Source: Gloeocapsopsis sp. IPPAS B-1203
GTDB taxonomy: Bacteria > Cyanobacteriota > Cyanobacteriia > Cyanobacteriales > Chroococcidiopsidaceae
NCBI RefSeq assembly: GCF_002749975.1
Contig: NZ_PEIG01000006.1
Location: forward strand, 1 to 64,000
DNA: 64,000 nucleotides
Direction of reading: 5' to 3'
Shown: positions 51,899-63,539 of the stretch, in pieces
Layout of the letters: each line of letters starts with the position of its first letter
How positions within the stretch are numbered: the first letter of the stretch is position 1
The notes under the pieces: generated by a model
What the model was told of the DNA's origin: nothing
Database searches by the model: none
The model's input: the letters and a program-made list of their open reading frames with translations, nothing else
Translations under genes and position numbers: made by a program

Positions 51899-52258
51899 TT
51901 GACCAAGATGCATGCACCTTCGCTTTATGAAACTGATTTCTATGCATGGACTGAAGAGCAAGTCAATTTGCTCAAGAATCAGCAGTGGGAGCAAGTAGAC
52001 GCCACTAACTTAATCGAGGAACAGGAATTGCGAGATAGATTAGGAGTGTTATTAGGACATCTTTTGAAATGGCAATTTCAATCTGAAAAACGTAGTAGTT
52101 GGTTAAGTACGATTCGAGAACAACGAATTCAAATCAAATTACTTTTGGCGGATAGCCCCAGTTTAAAACCATACTTAAATCAATTTTTTTTGGCTGCTTA
52201 CGAACTATGAATCCTGACTTCTTGCCCGAACCAGATATAATGAAGCTTGGCGAGTGAA
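51899..52258 (+). pseudogene. DUF29 gene with internal and C-terminal decay
   Basis: The frame 51899-52210 begins SLYETDFYAWTEEQVNLLKNQQW and has LGVLLGHLLKWQFQSEKRSSWLSTIREQR, the DUF29 pattern. Compared with the family it lacks the IESLGR-type stretch after NLIEE and stops early at 52208-52210. The next frame immediately gives NPDFLPEPDIMKLGE to a TGA at 52256-52258, resembling the family C-terminus. This points to two deletions, the second shifting frame. The 103-residue product might still be made. DUF29 is multi-copy and of unknown function. Confidence 0.68.
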
Positions 52259-52310
52259 GTCAATCTTCGTGAACTAATAAAAAATATAGCTGTAAAAATT
52301 TTGGGGCTTC

Positions 52311-53282
52311 TTACAGCAGAAACGGCGTATAGTTTCCGCCTAATGCTTCGACAACAGTGCGAGTATTAGCGATAATCATTTCAATGTAAGAATCTGCATC
52401 GCTTCCTGGAGGACCTATTGAGTCTGAGTACAAAGGTTGCGTAGCTAATTCAACTCCAGCTTCTGCAGCGACAGTTTGAATTAAGGCTGGATTAATTGTT
52501 GTTTCAGCAAAAATCGTGGGAACGTTTGCGTCTCTAATAGCATCAGATAATTGTCGTACTGTCTGGGCACTAGGTTGCTCTTCGGTACTGATACCAATTA
52601 AAGTCCCAAAAATTTTTAAGCCATAAGCATTAGCATAATATTGAAACGCATCGTGGGTCGTAACAAGCCGACGATTTTCGGGAGGAATAGTTTGAATTTG
52701 CTGACCAACCCAAGTGTGAAGTTGCTGCAATTGTGTTGTATAGTTTGCCGCATTTTGAGTCAAAACTTCCTGTTCTTCTGGTAATAACTCAATGAAAGCA
52801 TCTCGAATCGCGTTGACGATCGCGATCGCATTTTGGACATCTCCCCAAACATGAGGATCGGGAACCGTTGTTCCTTGTTCTTCTAGCTGTAGTGGTTGTA
52901 TAACTTCTCCGACTGCAAGTTTTCGTGCATTAACCCCTGCAGCATTCATGAGCCTAATCAAGCCAGGCTCTAAATTATAGCCGTTATAAAGAATCAAATC
53001 AGCTTTTTCAAAGGCAATACTATCTCGCGGGACAGGTTCATACACATGAGGGTCATCGCCTGGTTGTAAAATTCCTGTCAGTTGAATTTGCTCTTTTCCT
53101 AGTTGGGTAGCCCAGTCAGTAATAATTGTGCTCGTAGAAACAACACGAGCCTGAGCATTAGCCCCAGGATCGGCGCGATTGGTCATTGCTGCGCCACATG
53201 CACTCAACCATAACCCCAGCAAGAAGCCAACGACAACTTGCCATCTATAGTTTCTGCCTTGCGACCGAGTCCTCACTTTCAT
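52311..53282 (-). CDS. Mn/Zn ABC transporter substrate-binding lipoprotein (TroA/MntC/ZnuA family)
   Basis: 323 residues. A lipoprotein signal ends at LSACG (C29). Metal ligands by motif are H79 (GDDPHVYEP), H144 (DPHVWGD), H210 (TTHDAFQYY) and D287 (YSDSIG). His at the third site is the TroA/ZnuA pattern, whereas MntC has Glu. There is no His-rich loop of ZnuA type. Metal specificity is thus open between Mn and Zn. Divergent from its ATPase and permease across a repeat-bearing promoter. Confidence 0.88.
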   Translation of the reverse strand: MKVRTRSQGRNYRWQVVVGFLLGLWLSACGAAMTNRADPGANAQARVVSTSTIITDWATQLGKEQIQLTGILQPGDDPHVYEPVPRDSIAFEKADLILYNGYNLEPGLIRLMNAAGVNARKLAVGEVIQPLQLEEQGTTVPDPHVWGDVQNAIAIVNAIRDAFIELLPEEQEVLTQNAANYTTQLQQLHTWVGQQIQTIPPENRRLVTTHDAFQYYANAYGLKIFGTLIGISTEEQPSAQTVRQLSDAIRDANVPTIFAETTINPALIQTVAAEAGVELATQPLYSDSIGPPGSDADSYIEMIIANTRTVVEALGGNYTPFLL

Positions 53283-53297
53283 GGAATTGATACATTA

Positions 53298-53354
53298 GTT
53301 TTCATATTCTTTTCATTTTTCAGCATATACTGTTTTCATATTCTTTTCATTTTT
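53298..53354. promoter_or_regulatory. Phased direct repeats in the divergent metal-transporter promoter
   Basis: A 23-base sequence occurs twice exactly, at 53298-53320 and 53332-53354, 34 bases apart (about three helical turns). Each copy contains TTTTCAT twice, 11 bases apart. Such helix-phased direct repeats are typical of OmpR-type response regulators. In Synechocystis the mntCAB genes are repressed by the OmpR-type ManR, so a ManR-like operator is the natural guess. Confidence 0.6.
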
Positions 53355-53472
53355 AACCTTAGACGCGTCGACATTGTTACTTCTTACTTCATCGCTATAG
53401 AGCAAAAACATGACCCTTCTGCCCTTTCCTAGCCGTACAAAATCACATCTACCAGCGCCAAAAGACACTTTG

Positions 53473-54213
53473 ATGGAAGACGCAGCAATTACTGTCAGCC
53501 ATCTAGGAGTTCAATATCGAAATGTTGAAGCATTGCATGATGCTAACTTCGAGATTTACCCTGGAAGAATAACTGGAATTATCGGTCCTAACGGTGCTGG
53601 TAAGAGTACCTTAATCAAGGCAATGCTAGGGCTAGTTTCAGCAAGCAGTGGCACTGTATTGTATCGAGGTGAGCCGCTCAAGTCTCAGTTAGAGAAAGTC
53701 GCTTATGTTCCGCAACGCTCGATGATTGATTGGAGTTATCCTGCTACTGTGTGGGATATCGTTTTGATGGGGCGAGTGCGTAAAGCTGGTTGGTTTCGCC
53801 GCTTTTCTCATGTTAGCCGCCAAGTGGCTGCTGCTGCGTTGGAACGTGTGGGAATGAGTGAGTATCGCGATCGCTCAATCGGGCAACTCTCTGGTGGACA
53901 ACAGCAACGAGTTTTTCTTGCTCGTGCATTAGCAGAAGAAGCAGAGGTATTCTGTTTTGATGAACCACTAGCAGGCATTGATAAAAAAACTGAAGCAGTC
54001 ATTTTTGAGGTTTTTCACGAGCTAGCCGCAGCAGGTAAAATTGTGCTAGTTGTTAACCATGACTTGGGTGAAGCAATTACTAATTTTGACGACCTCATTT
54101 TATTGAATAAAGAAGTTATTGCGAGTGGTTCGCGTACTACTGTCTTACAACCCGAAAACATGAACCGCGCTTATCGAGGACAAGTTGTGTTTTTTAATGG
54201 AGAAGCAGCATGA
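53473..54213 (+). CDS. Mn/Zn ABC transporter ATP-binding protein
   Basis: 246 residues from ATG (MEDAAITVSHLGVQYRNVEA); the frame extends to an ATG at 53410. Walker A GPNGAGKST, signature LSGGQQQRVFLARAL, Walker B VFCFDEPLAGID and the H-loop VNHDLGE. The VPQRSMIDWSYPATVWDIVLMGR segment is typical of metal-importer ATPases. Pairs with the permease downstream. Confidence 0.93.
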   Translation: MEDAAITVSHLGVQYRNVEALHDANFEIYPGRITGIIGPNGAGKSTLIKAMLGLVSASSGTVLYRGEPLKSQLEKVAYVPQRSMIDWSYPATVWDIVLMGRVRKAGWFRRFSHVSRQVAAAALERVGMSEYRDRSIGQLSGGQQQRVFLARALAEEAEVFCFDEPLAGIDKKTEAVIFEVFHELAAAGKIVLVVNHDLGEAITNFDDLILLNKEVIASGSRTTVLQPENMNRAYRGQVVFFNGEAA

Positions 54214-54246
54214 AAAAACTATTAGCAATTAGCTACTCTGGTAATC

Positions 54247-54267
54247 GGTAATTGGTAATTGGTAATT
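54247..54267. repeat. Three tandem GGTAATT units
   Basis: A seven-base unit repeated three times between the ATPase and permease genes, in a 150-base spacer unusual for such a pair. It looks like simple low-complexity spacer DNA. Confidence 0.7.
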
Positions 54268-54362
54268 GGAACTACCGATTCTGTTTCCCAATAAAATATA
54301 TCTAAAATTTCTGAAGAACTCTAAAAGCCAAAAGCTAACCACTAATTGCTAATCGCTGATTT

Positions 54363-55259
54363 ATGCTAGAAGCTATTATTGAACCGTTGCAGTATGGTTT
54401 TATGCAGCGATCGCTTGTGATTGCTGTTTTGGTTGGGGTGATTTGTGCGATTGTGGGTAGCTATTTAATGGTACAACGCCTAGCGTTACTTGGAGATGCA
54501 ATTAGCCATTCAGTATTACCAGGACTCGCGATCGCTTTTATAGTAGGAGCAGATATTTTTGTCGGTGCTTTTATTGCAGGAGTCGTTAGTACACTTGCTA
54601 TTGCTTTGATTCGGACGCGATCGCCGATTAAAGAAGATGCCGCAATGGGAATTGTTTTTTCTGCCTTTTTTGCGTTAGGAATTACGTTAATTACTATTGT
54701 GCAGAAAACAAATAAAATCGATCTCAACCATTTCTTATTCGGTAACATTTTAGGTGTTACTTCTCAAGATGTTTGGAATACAGCAATTATTTCTTTATTT
54801 GTGATTGCTGTTGTTTTTTTACTCTATAAAGAATTATTGTTTTATACTTTTGATCCTGTGGGTGCGCAAGCAGCAGGATTACCTGTCAATCTCCTCAATT
54901 TTGGCTTGATGGTGTTAATTGCCTTGACAATTGTAGCGAGTCTTACAGCAGTTGGTGTCATTTTAGTTTTAGCGCTATTGATTACACCAGGAGCAACAGC
55001 ATACTTACTTGTCAAACGCCTCAATCAAATGATGATTTTAGGTGCAATTATAGGTATTGTTGCTAGTATTAGCGGTATGTATCTTAGCTACTTTTATAAT
55101 TTACCTTCGGGTCCAGCGATTGTTTTAGTCGCATCTGGCATTTTTGTATTAGCACTATTATTTAGCCCAAGTCAAGGCATCTTAACCTATCCACAGTCTC
55201 ATTCACAGGGATGGGCTTTTTGGAAAGAAATTAAGAATTTACTGCGATCGCGTTCTTAA
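54363..55259 (+). CDS. Mn/Zn ABC transporter permease
   Basis: 298 residues of the ABC-3 family (MntB/ZnuB/TroC) with about 8-9 membrane spans. LEAIIEPLQYGFMQRSLVIAV, GSYLMVQRLALLGDAISHSVLPGLAIAF (in part) and VGVILVLALLITPGATAYLL are the family signature. It completes the importer with the binding protein at 52311 and the ATPase at 53473. Confidence 0.94.
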   Translation: MLEAIIEPLQYGFMQRSLVIAVLVGVICAIVGSYLMVQRLALLGDAISHSVLPGLAIAFIVGADIFVGAFIAGVVSTLAIALIRTRSPIKEDAAMGIVFSAFFALGITLITIVQKTNKIDLNHFLFGNILGVTSQDVWNTAIISLFVIAVVFLLYKELLFYTFDPVGAQAAGLPVNLLNFGLMVLIALTIVASLTAVGVILVLALLITPGATAYLLVKRLNQMMILGAIIGIVASISGMYLSYFYNLPSGPAIVLVASGIFVLALLFSPSQGILTYPQSHSQGWAFWKEIKNLLRSRS

Positions 55260-55277
55260 GTCAATTAGCTAACAGTT

Positions 55278-55892
55278 TTAGTCTGCTGGCAATGATATCT
55301 GGTTGAGAATAACTCCCACTTCTTCCATACCTGCGGAATTGTTTTGCATAGCATAAAGTTCTCTTGCTTTTTGTAGTGATGCAACTGCTTGAGAAACTTT
55401 ACCTTGACTCCAAAACGCAACTCCTAAGTTTTGGCGAGAGACTGGATCGCTTGGGTTAATCTGAATGGCACGATTAAACGCCGCGATCGCTTCAGCGAAT
55501 TTACCTTGACTTCCTAGTGCAATTCCCAAATTGTTGTAAGTTTCAAAATTTTGAGGATTAATTTCAATAGCACGATTGAACGCCGCGATCGCCTCAGCAA
55601 ATTTGTTTTGATTACCAAGCGCTAGTCCAAGATTATTATGGGCGTTTTCGTATTCTGGATAGATTGAAATAGCACGATTAAACGCCGCGATCGCTTCTGC
55701 TAATCTTCCTTGTTCTGCTAATTCTACTCCTTGGTTATTATGAACTTCTGCCTGCTGTCTACTGGCGATAGATGGCATATCAGCCGAAATAATATATGAA
55801 TCTAACGCTAAACTTGGCTGAATCCATATAAAAACGCTAGTAAATCCTACCGCAATCAACCCAGCAAGAATATAAGGCTTTTTCATAAACAA
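55278..55892 (-). CDS. Exported TPR-repeat protein
   Basis: 204 residues. Residues 1-28 are a signal peptide or membrane anchor. Four TPR units follow (about residues 47-180), with near-identical 34-residue repeats containing EAIAAFNRAI and NLGIALG. The repeats show HIP1 sites at the same codon position (GCGATCGC in A-I-A), pointing to recent duplication. A protein-interaction role is likely but no partner is evident. The first codon could also be the ATG two codons in. Confidence 0.87.
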   Translation of the reverse strand: MFMKKPYILAGLIAVGFTSVFIWIQPSLALDSYIISADMPSIASRQQAEVHNNQGVELAEQGRLAEAIAAFNRAISIYPEYENAHNNLGLALGNQNKFAEAIAAFNRAIEINPQNFETYNNLGIALGSQGKFAEAIAAFNRAIQINPSDPVSRQNLGVAFWSQGKVSQAVASLQKARELYAMQNNSAGMEEVGVILNQISLPAD

Positions 55893-57921: not shown

Positions 57922-58644
57922 ATGTTTTTTGATACAAAGAAATTATTTCATACTTCAGAAGTGAGCCAAAATCGCAAATGTTTGTTATGCAAACCTGGAG
58001 TAGTTCCCTACCAAATAGCATGGCAATGGCAGCGATCGCTACAACAACGTGTCTATGACTCTGACTCGGAAGATGTCTTGATTTTGCTCGAACATCCCCC
58101 CGTGTATACTTTAGGGCAAGGTGCCGATCCTAAATTTATTAAATTTGATCCTGACAAGAGTAGATATGATGTGTATCGAGTCGAACGCGGCGGCGAAGTG
58201 ACGTATCATTGTCCTGGTCAACTCGTTGGTTATCCAATTTTAAATCTGCAGTATTATTACAAAGACTTACACTGGTATCTTCGTCAGTTAGAAGAAGTAG
58301 TTATTCAAGTATTAGCCGTTTACGGATTGCCAGGAGAACGTTATCCAGGATTAACAGGTGTTTGGCTAGAAGGCTATAAAGTTGCAGCGATCGGGATTAA
58401 AGTTAGTCGCTGGGTGACAATGCACGGATTTGCTTTAAACGTGTGTCCCGACATGACAGGCTTTGAGCGCATTGTTCCTTGTGGTATTTCTGATAAACCT
58501 GTTGGTAGTCTATCGCAGTGGATTCCTGACATTACTTTAGAACAAGTCATTCCACACGTCACTCAAGCTTTCGCTACAGTATTTGATGTCAATATGGTAA
58601 AAACTGAAGTAAAACATTTACAAATTCTAGCCACTAGTCACTAA
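57922..58644 (+). CDS. lipB: Octanoyl-[ACP]:protein N-octanoyltransferase
   Basis: 240 residues. Moves octanoyl from ACP to lipoate-dependent enzymes. The [19 protein letters not shown] block, the catalytic lysine K160 ([14 protein letters not shown]) and the acyl-accepting C187 ([15 protein letters not shown]) are intact. The first 20 residues are not conserved, and a later start is possible. Confidence 0.94.
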
Positions 58645-58668
58645 TCACTCCTCACTCCTTCATTCAAC
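58632..58668. repeat. 37-base direct repeat, copy 1 (lipB end)
   Basis: Begins CACTAGTCACTAATCACTCC and ends ATTCAAC; identical to 58704-58740. It covers the last codons and stop of lipB. Confidence 0.9.
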
Positions 58669-58703: not shown

Positions 58704-58740
58704 CACTAGTCACTAATCACTCCTCACTCCTTCATTCAAC
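58704..58740. repeat. 37-base direct repeat, copy 2 (ABC gene end)
   Basis: Identical to 58632-58668, 72 bases downstream. It supplies the last codons and stop of the convergent ABC ATPase gene, so the two genes' 3' ends share one sequence read in opposite directions. Confidence 0.9.
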
Positions 58741-63481: not shown

Positions 63482-63539
63482 GTTTTGTTAGCGTAGCGGT
63501 GCCTTAGCACGTTTTGTTAGCGTAGCGGTGCCTTAGCAC
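63482..63539. repeat. Two perfect 29-base tandem repeat units
   Basis: The unit starting GTTTTGTTAGCGTAGCGGTG occupies 63482-63510 and again 63511-63539 with no mismatch. It lies in the 230-base spacer between the SNase gene (whose 5' end it faces) and the last gene. The inner TTAGCGTAGCGGTGCC...GGCAC-like composition resembles dispersed cyanobacterial intergenic repeats. Confidence 0.9.

Follow-up and report, generated by a model that had tools for sequence, protein, structure and literature searches.

A conserved 11-bp phased direct repeat between divergent transporter genes of Gloeocapsopsis, a putative operator of the manganese regulator ManR

Control of mntCAB by ManS/ManR in Synechocystis sp. 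PCC 6803 was reportedly described by Yamaguchi 2002 and Ogawa 2002. Phosphorylated ManR represses mntCAB when Mn is sufficient (PMC7020235, PMC3264485), and, according to one of these sources, apart from ManS/ManR no system has a reliable link to Mn-dependent transcription in cyanobacteria (PMC7020235). A 2026 review names mntCAB as the sole ManS/ManR target and, in its available portions, gives no binding sequence (PMC13421787). A repeat of the form TTCATN4-5TTCAT has been proposed in PCC 6803 as the sequence of a sister regulator, CopR; the repeat is found upstream of mntC as well, and again between nrsRS and nrsBACD (PMC4182526). In that study, mntC and the nrs genes were unchanged in any strain, mntC being indifferent to copper or to loss of CopR (PMC4182526). 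The repeat upstream of Synechocystis mntC is thus already in print, as a putative CopR site and, in the same portions of the source, unassigned to ManR (PMC4182526). The hemi manganese exchangers Hmx1/Hmx2 are Mn importers of PCC 6803; their transcripts are reported as unresponsive to Mn excess and are regarded as constitutive (PMC11649195). Our literature search found no ManR binding sequence and no report of the repeat's assignment to ManR, its conservation or its extension to hmx; it did not cover subscription papers, including the 2002 primary paper, and a published site is possible. The Pho box of PhoB offers a likeness of form, with 7-bp direct repeats that recur at an 11-bp period close to the -10 element, but it differs in half-site and metal, and the regulator considered here is a reported repressor in the model species.

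The locus described here, from Gloeocapsopsis sp. IPPAS B-1203, resembles ManS/ManR-mntCAB (PMC7020235, PMC3264485, PMC13421787, PMC4361706) in having an OmpR-family regulator without adjacent kinase, an Mn ABC transporter as the predicted target and an 11-bp phased TTTCAT repeat, which Synechocystis salina, a near relative of the model strain, also has at its canonical mntC promoter. Unlike mntCAB, the genes here encode a divergently arranged transporter whose binding protein is of the His type; a presumed bidirectional promoter stands between two putative operators, and the site recurs at an hmx-like pair. The CopR site of Synechocystis (PMC4182526) has the same half-site at about the same spacing, whereas its spacer and preceding base differ and its genes concern copper. 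As in Hmx1/Hmx2 (PMC11649195), the hmx-like genes form a half-size UPF0016 pair, here in the same predicted regulon; in contrast to the reportedly constitutive genes of PCC 6803, this pair and the hmx match of 31 of 52 other genomes carry the box. Three points appear to be new: the element is strictly confined to Mn genes, a transporter of the His type is assigned to Mn, and hmx joins the predicted regulon.

The repeat and its surroundings

The window, meaning the whole stretch of 64,000 nucleotides analysed (contig NZ_PEIG01000006.1, positions 1 to 64,000), contains the following features at this locus:

52311..53282, minus strand: gene for the substrate-binding protein of a metal ABC transporter (mntC-like, TroA/AztC-like); open reading frame with NCBIfam and PDB sequence matches, all under equivalog cut-offs
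53298..53320, plus strand: copy 1 of the 23-mer, putative operator pair 1; TTTTCAT at 53299-53305 and 53310-53316, kept in relatives
53324..53331, no strand assigned: CATATACT, putative overlapping -10 elements, TATACT at 53326-53331 (plus) and TATATG at 53324-53329 (minus)
53332..53354, plus strand: copy 2 of the 23-mer, putative operator pair 2; TTTTCAT at 53333-53339 and 53344-53350, kept in relatives
53410..54213, plus strand: gene for the ATP-binding protein of the transporter (mntA-like); open reading frame, NCBIfam
54363..55259, plus strand: gene for the permease of the transporter (mntB-like); open reading frame, NCBIfam

The two copies of the 23-mer GTTTTCATATTCTTTTCATTTTT (53298-53320 and 53332-53354) are identical and start 34 bp apart, in a gap of 127 bp (30% GC) that separates the divergent binding-protein and ATPase genes. 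This agrees with the original prediction, as does the placing of two TTTTCAT boxes one helical turn apart in each copy (starts at 53299, 53310, 53333 and 53344). The accompanying claim that all four boxes lie on one face of the DNA holds for each pair by itself and no more than loosely for the two pairs together. Offsets of 0, 11, 34 and 45 bp correspond to 0, 17, 86 and 103 degrees at 10.5 bp/turn, which leaves the two pairs about 86 degrees out of phase, or 33 degrees at 11.0 bp/turn (0, 0, 33 and 33 degrees). In relatives the two pairs stand at varying distances: 11, 23, 33-35, 39 or 59-60 bp. The 23-mer repeat is not due to chance, because none of 1000 dinucleotide shuffles reached its length (longest exact direct repeat in the gap 23, maximum in the shuffles 12) and because relatives conserve the boxes. 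Within the 5.9-Mb genome, TTTTCAT-N4-TTTTCAT occurs three times, twice in this gap. The extended 22-bp element recurs at no other genomic place with up to two mismatches; at three mismatches there are seven further places, against five for the reversed pattern.

Pair 1 and pair 2 are separated by CATATACT. In most two-pair loci of relatives TATACT follows pair 1 by 9 bp on the plus strand; in species with a single pair, a TATGCT-like box tends to follow the pair by 8-9 bp, and the bases immediately ahead of the pair tend to be TATA-rich. The promoter positions proposed here are guesses from these conserved TATA-like bases; searches of the locus for a consensus -35, sigma-70 promoters and terminators returned none. 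Riboswitch control was rejected, as nothing in 52200-55400 matched an Rfam riboswitch (yybP-ykoY or other) at gathering score. A further segment, TTGATACATTA (window 53283-53297), separates the mntC start from pair 1; most relatives with two pairs keep it, and it could hold another mntC promoter element.

Distribution of the element among manganese genes

The element was followed through 60 related genomes, its own included, 58 of which encode some relative of the binding protein. Group A comprises 40 window-type orthologues (a first search supplied the DNA for 30, and the other ten were fetched later), and group B is a selection of 12 His-rich paralogues from a longer list of members. Group C holds 12 canonical MntC proteins and group D nine further proteins whose identity to canonical MntC is 29-35%; the 21 members of C and D were scored together and split afterwards by MntC identity (at least 52% vs at most 35%). 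The promoter test covered the 450 bp upstream of each gene and sought TTTCAT-N5-TTTCAT, allowing up to one mismatch. This 11-bp pair precedes 36 of the 40 group A genes and all 12 of group C, and none in groups B (0/12) and D (0/9), while other spacings (N2-N4, N6-N9) occur at only 1 to 7 of the 40 group A loci. Loss of the repeats in relatives had been put forward as a refuting outcome; instead, three of the four orthologous loci without the pair have 11-bp phased arrays of weaker boxes, and the sole locus with no box at all belongs to a genome without detectable ManR (G034). Across 11 group A loci in equal register the box columns are 97% identical, compared with 34% over the adjoining 26 bp, and 61 sites give the consensus TTTTCATAWTCYTTTCATTTTT. 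Groups A and C are nearly mutually exclusive: of the 60 genomes, 40 have A and 12 have C, a single one has both, and 51 have at least one of them. Two alternative Mn transporters that share one control would be expected to show this pattern, which looks as though one had replaced the other while the operator stayed the same.

A wider scan of the 60 genomes with the 22-bp element, allowing at most one mismatch, gave 47 matches in 30 genomes; the reversed pattern, used as control, gave none. Every match lies within 600 bp of an Mn gene: 38 at the group A locus, two at canonical mntC and seven upstream of a pair of half-size UPF0016 genes, which match the description of Hmx1/Hmx2 (PMC11649195). 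The shorter TTTCAT-N5-TTTCAT with one mismatch was rejected as a regulon finder, its hits being at about the level of the reversed control in five genomes, and consequently only the 22-bp element and promoter-anchored counts are used. Among the seven three-mismatch places in the Gloeocapsopsis genome, one is at hmx, one precedes a multicopper oxidase-like gene and two are of copper type; the other three, judged by their neighbours, were taken for chance.

In this genome an exact TTTCAT-N5-TTTCAT stands 22 bp ahead of the start of the hmx-like pair. Of 53 genomes having an hmx match, 32 carry the pair there with at most one mismatch (19 exact, 31 in the expected orientation) and 21 do not; other spacings at hmx number 0 to 2. 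Neither hmx gene of S. salina has the box (3-4 mismatches), in agreement with the constitutive hmx reported for PCC 6803 (PMC11649195). Six further genomes with canonical mntC also show no box at hmx, the best site, in the filamentous cyanobacterium ESFC-1, having two mismatches, and the 3.2-kb locus of the full-length UPF0016 gene (Mnx-like) has no pair at up to two mismatches. Lineages with and without the box at hmx form a clean pair for asking if an operator by itself is enough to bring a constitutive metal importer under regulation.

ManR as the candidate regulator

The link to ManR runs through S. salina, whose MntC shares 96% identity with its PCC 6803 counterpart across 268 residues. 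An 11-bp phased repeat lies directly upstream of S. salina mntC, and 16 more of 20 named cyanobacterial loci have it too; the 4 Mb of S. salina hold 39 occurrences of the one-mismatch pair, an expectation below 1% per 700-bp region. Its ManR was picked among ten OmpR-type genes by length, by Cys positions and by elimination, with Table 2 of PMC4361706 as reference, which gives 234 aa, Cys154, Cys230 and a first Cys at 64. In the numbering of the S. salina protein the first Cys is at 66, against 64 in that table (PMC4361706). A genome search for a ManR-like regulator, as the original prediction advised, yielded the Gloeocapsopsis orthologue, L021 (G000:C6:115160-115843), on the same contig as the repeat; it is the reciprocal best hit of S. 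salina ManR (59% identical) and has no adjoining kinase gene. The proposal of an OmpR-type regulator such as ManR is supported by this same-contig orthologue and by the repeat at mntC of S. salina, whose PCC 6803 orthologue is a reported ManR target (PMC7020235).

ManR orthologues are found in 56 of the 60 genomes (at least 61% identity; next matches at most 52%), and only two of the 40 group A genomes, G034 and G005, lack a detected one. G005 (84% complete) has the box. G034 (98% complete, one contig) has neither ManR nor the box, here or at hmx; it keeps orthologues of RpaA, RpaB, SphR, Rre28 and CopR, and the box is unlikely to be kept for any of these five regulators, because a boxless genome retains them. 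The agreement of ManR loss with box loss comes from this one genome, which has lost other response regulators too, being also without clear Rre3, NrsR, CcaR and Rre37 orthologues. A response-regulator gene of G034 broken by a TAG stop (L377, G034:C1:1317591) is closest to RpaB and Rre3, not to ManR.

By eye, the 400 bp upstream of manR (L021) hold no box. The search for further TTTTCAT-N4-TTTTCAT sites, also advised earlier, produced one beyond the gap (L003:1501-1518, G000:C11:53458), about 276 bp before a regulator gene other than ManR, with a kinase gene next. Autoregulation of ManR through this site was rejected, since the OmpR-type gene that follows is NrsR/RppA-like, closest to L194. The site may be compared with the one named for the nrsRS-nrsBACD interval in PMC4182526.

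Taken together, the element at this locus is real, conserved and most likely an operator for ManR. The two 23-mers are very probably tandem ManR operators. With its two direct half-sites spaced by one helical turn, each operator would suit a ManR dimer in head-to-tail arrangement, and the pairs flank CATATACT, which most likely holds overlapping -10 elements of the divergent promoters. A ManR dimer would sit on either side of these promoters and each bound dimer would block both. When Mn is plentiful, phosphorylated ManR would cover both promoters and turn the whole transporter off; Mn shortage would release it. With the same operator at the hmx-like pair of this genome, ManR would govern both import routes.

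The main rival to repression keeps ManR at this site as a PhoB-like, class II activator: pair 1 would replace the -35 element and recruit polymerase to the -10 about 9 bp downstream, consistent with the 8-9 bp retained between pair and -10 in relatives, with the lack of a consensus -35 and with the likeness to the Pho box. Such a role is nevertheless improbable, given that the presumed plus-strand -10 precedes pair 2, that the box in canonical mntC and hmx promoters stands close before the start codon, a repressor-like place, and that ManR is a reported repressor of mntCAB in Synechocystis (PMC7020235, PMC3264485).

A broader rule is about as likely as not: in this branch of cyanobacteria ManR would govern both known plasma-membrane Mn import routes, a non-MntC ABC transporter and the hmx exchangers regarded as constitutive, via a single operator that tracks function, not the gene, across three unrelated promoters, and ManR and CopR would share TTTCAT and be told apart by the 5-bp spacer and the preceding base. 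The predicted operator is ordinary in kind and useful in consequence. It would make the ManR regulon readable from sequence, add a second Mn importer to it and point to the metal carried by a type of transporter whose ligands do not decide between Mn and Zn.

Manganese against copper and zinc

The TTTTCAT-N4-TTTTCAT geometry, which had been taken as that expected of an OmpR-type regulator such as ManR, is not specific to ManR. Both this genome and S. salina have ATTTCAT-N5-TTTCAT, with the same half-site, the 11-bp period and other spacers, at copper-type genes (CopM/DUF305, CopR), and these are probably CopR sites:

Gloeocapsopsis: L022:2278, L025:982, L062:533 and 1505, L064:1505
S. salina: L197:389 and 3097

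A paralogous OmpR-type regulator such as CopR might accordingly bind at the transporter, whose genes would then answer to copper or another signal, and TTCATN4-5TTCAT is indeed the putative CopR sequence of PCC 6803 (PMC4182526). This is quite unlikely, as spacer and preceding base differ between the Mn and copper sites. The base before the pair is A in 7/7 hand-picked copper sites and T in 54/61 group A sites, and the first spacer position has no A in those seven hand-picked sites, while it is A in 58/61 group A sites; canonical mntC sites are looser at this position (A in 12/19 and 20/25 sites). The window element has the Mn-type spacer ATTCT preceded by T, the copper-type spacer and preceding A being absent. 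Moreover, G034 retains a CopR orthologue (63%) yet has no box at this locus, and PCC 6803 mntC responded neither to copper nor to CopR loss (PMC4182526). The comparison suggests, short of proof, that the 5-bp spacer and preceding base separate the sister regulators ManR and CopR.

At L061:1501-1522 (G000:C13:84951) an exact TTTTCAT-ATTTC-TTTCAT, its spacer of the Mn type, stands 10 bp ahead of a multicopper oxidase-like gene with a Tat signal; this gene adjoins a shortened copper-ATPase-like gene. It is a possible further target of ManR or CopR.

The His-type third ligand had left Mn or Zn open. Within the motif [VI]T[TS]HDAF it is His in 30/30 full-length orthologues examined (VTTHDAF in the window); canonical MntC has Glu (SCEGAF), a trait that the window protein lacks. 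The best NCBIfam match of the binding protein is the zinc protein AztC, below cut-off (263 bits vs 350). A transporter for zinc, with the repeat serving zinc control, would suit both traits, but TroA-type proteins with three His and one Asp are known to serve Mn. The consensus palindrome of Zur is TGATAATNATTATCA, and matches to it with at most two mismatches lie upstream of 11/12 group B genes, 1/40 group A genes and 0/12 canonical mntC genes; upstream of the window gene there is no Zur box, the best match having six mismatches. A zinc transporter under zinc control is very unlikely on this evidence. The analysis favours manganese despite the His ligand, because the box goes with Mn genes, canonical Mn transporters included, while the His-rich paralogues carry Zur boxes. 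Finally, chance or neutral duplication in AT-rich DNA, for all the low GC content of the gap and the T-rich boxes, is practically excluded, already refuted by the conservation of the box columns and opposed by the shuffles and by the enrichment of the 11-bp spacing only.

Near-perfect Zur palindromes lie upstream of the His-rich paralogue L103 and of 10 of the 11 other group B loci; because His-rich paralogues have them, the zinc importer of this genome is probably the C4 copy. Elsewhere in the window, a control scan found two other close, long exact direct repeats, at approximately 58632-58668 with 58704-58740 and 63482-63510 with 63511-63539.
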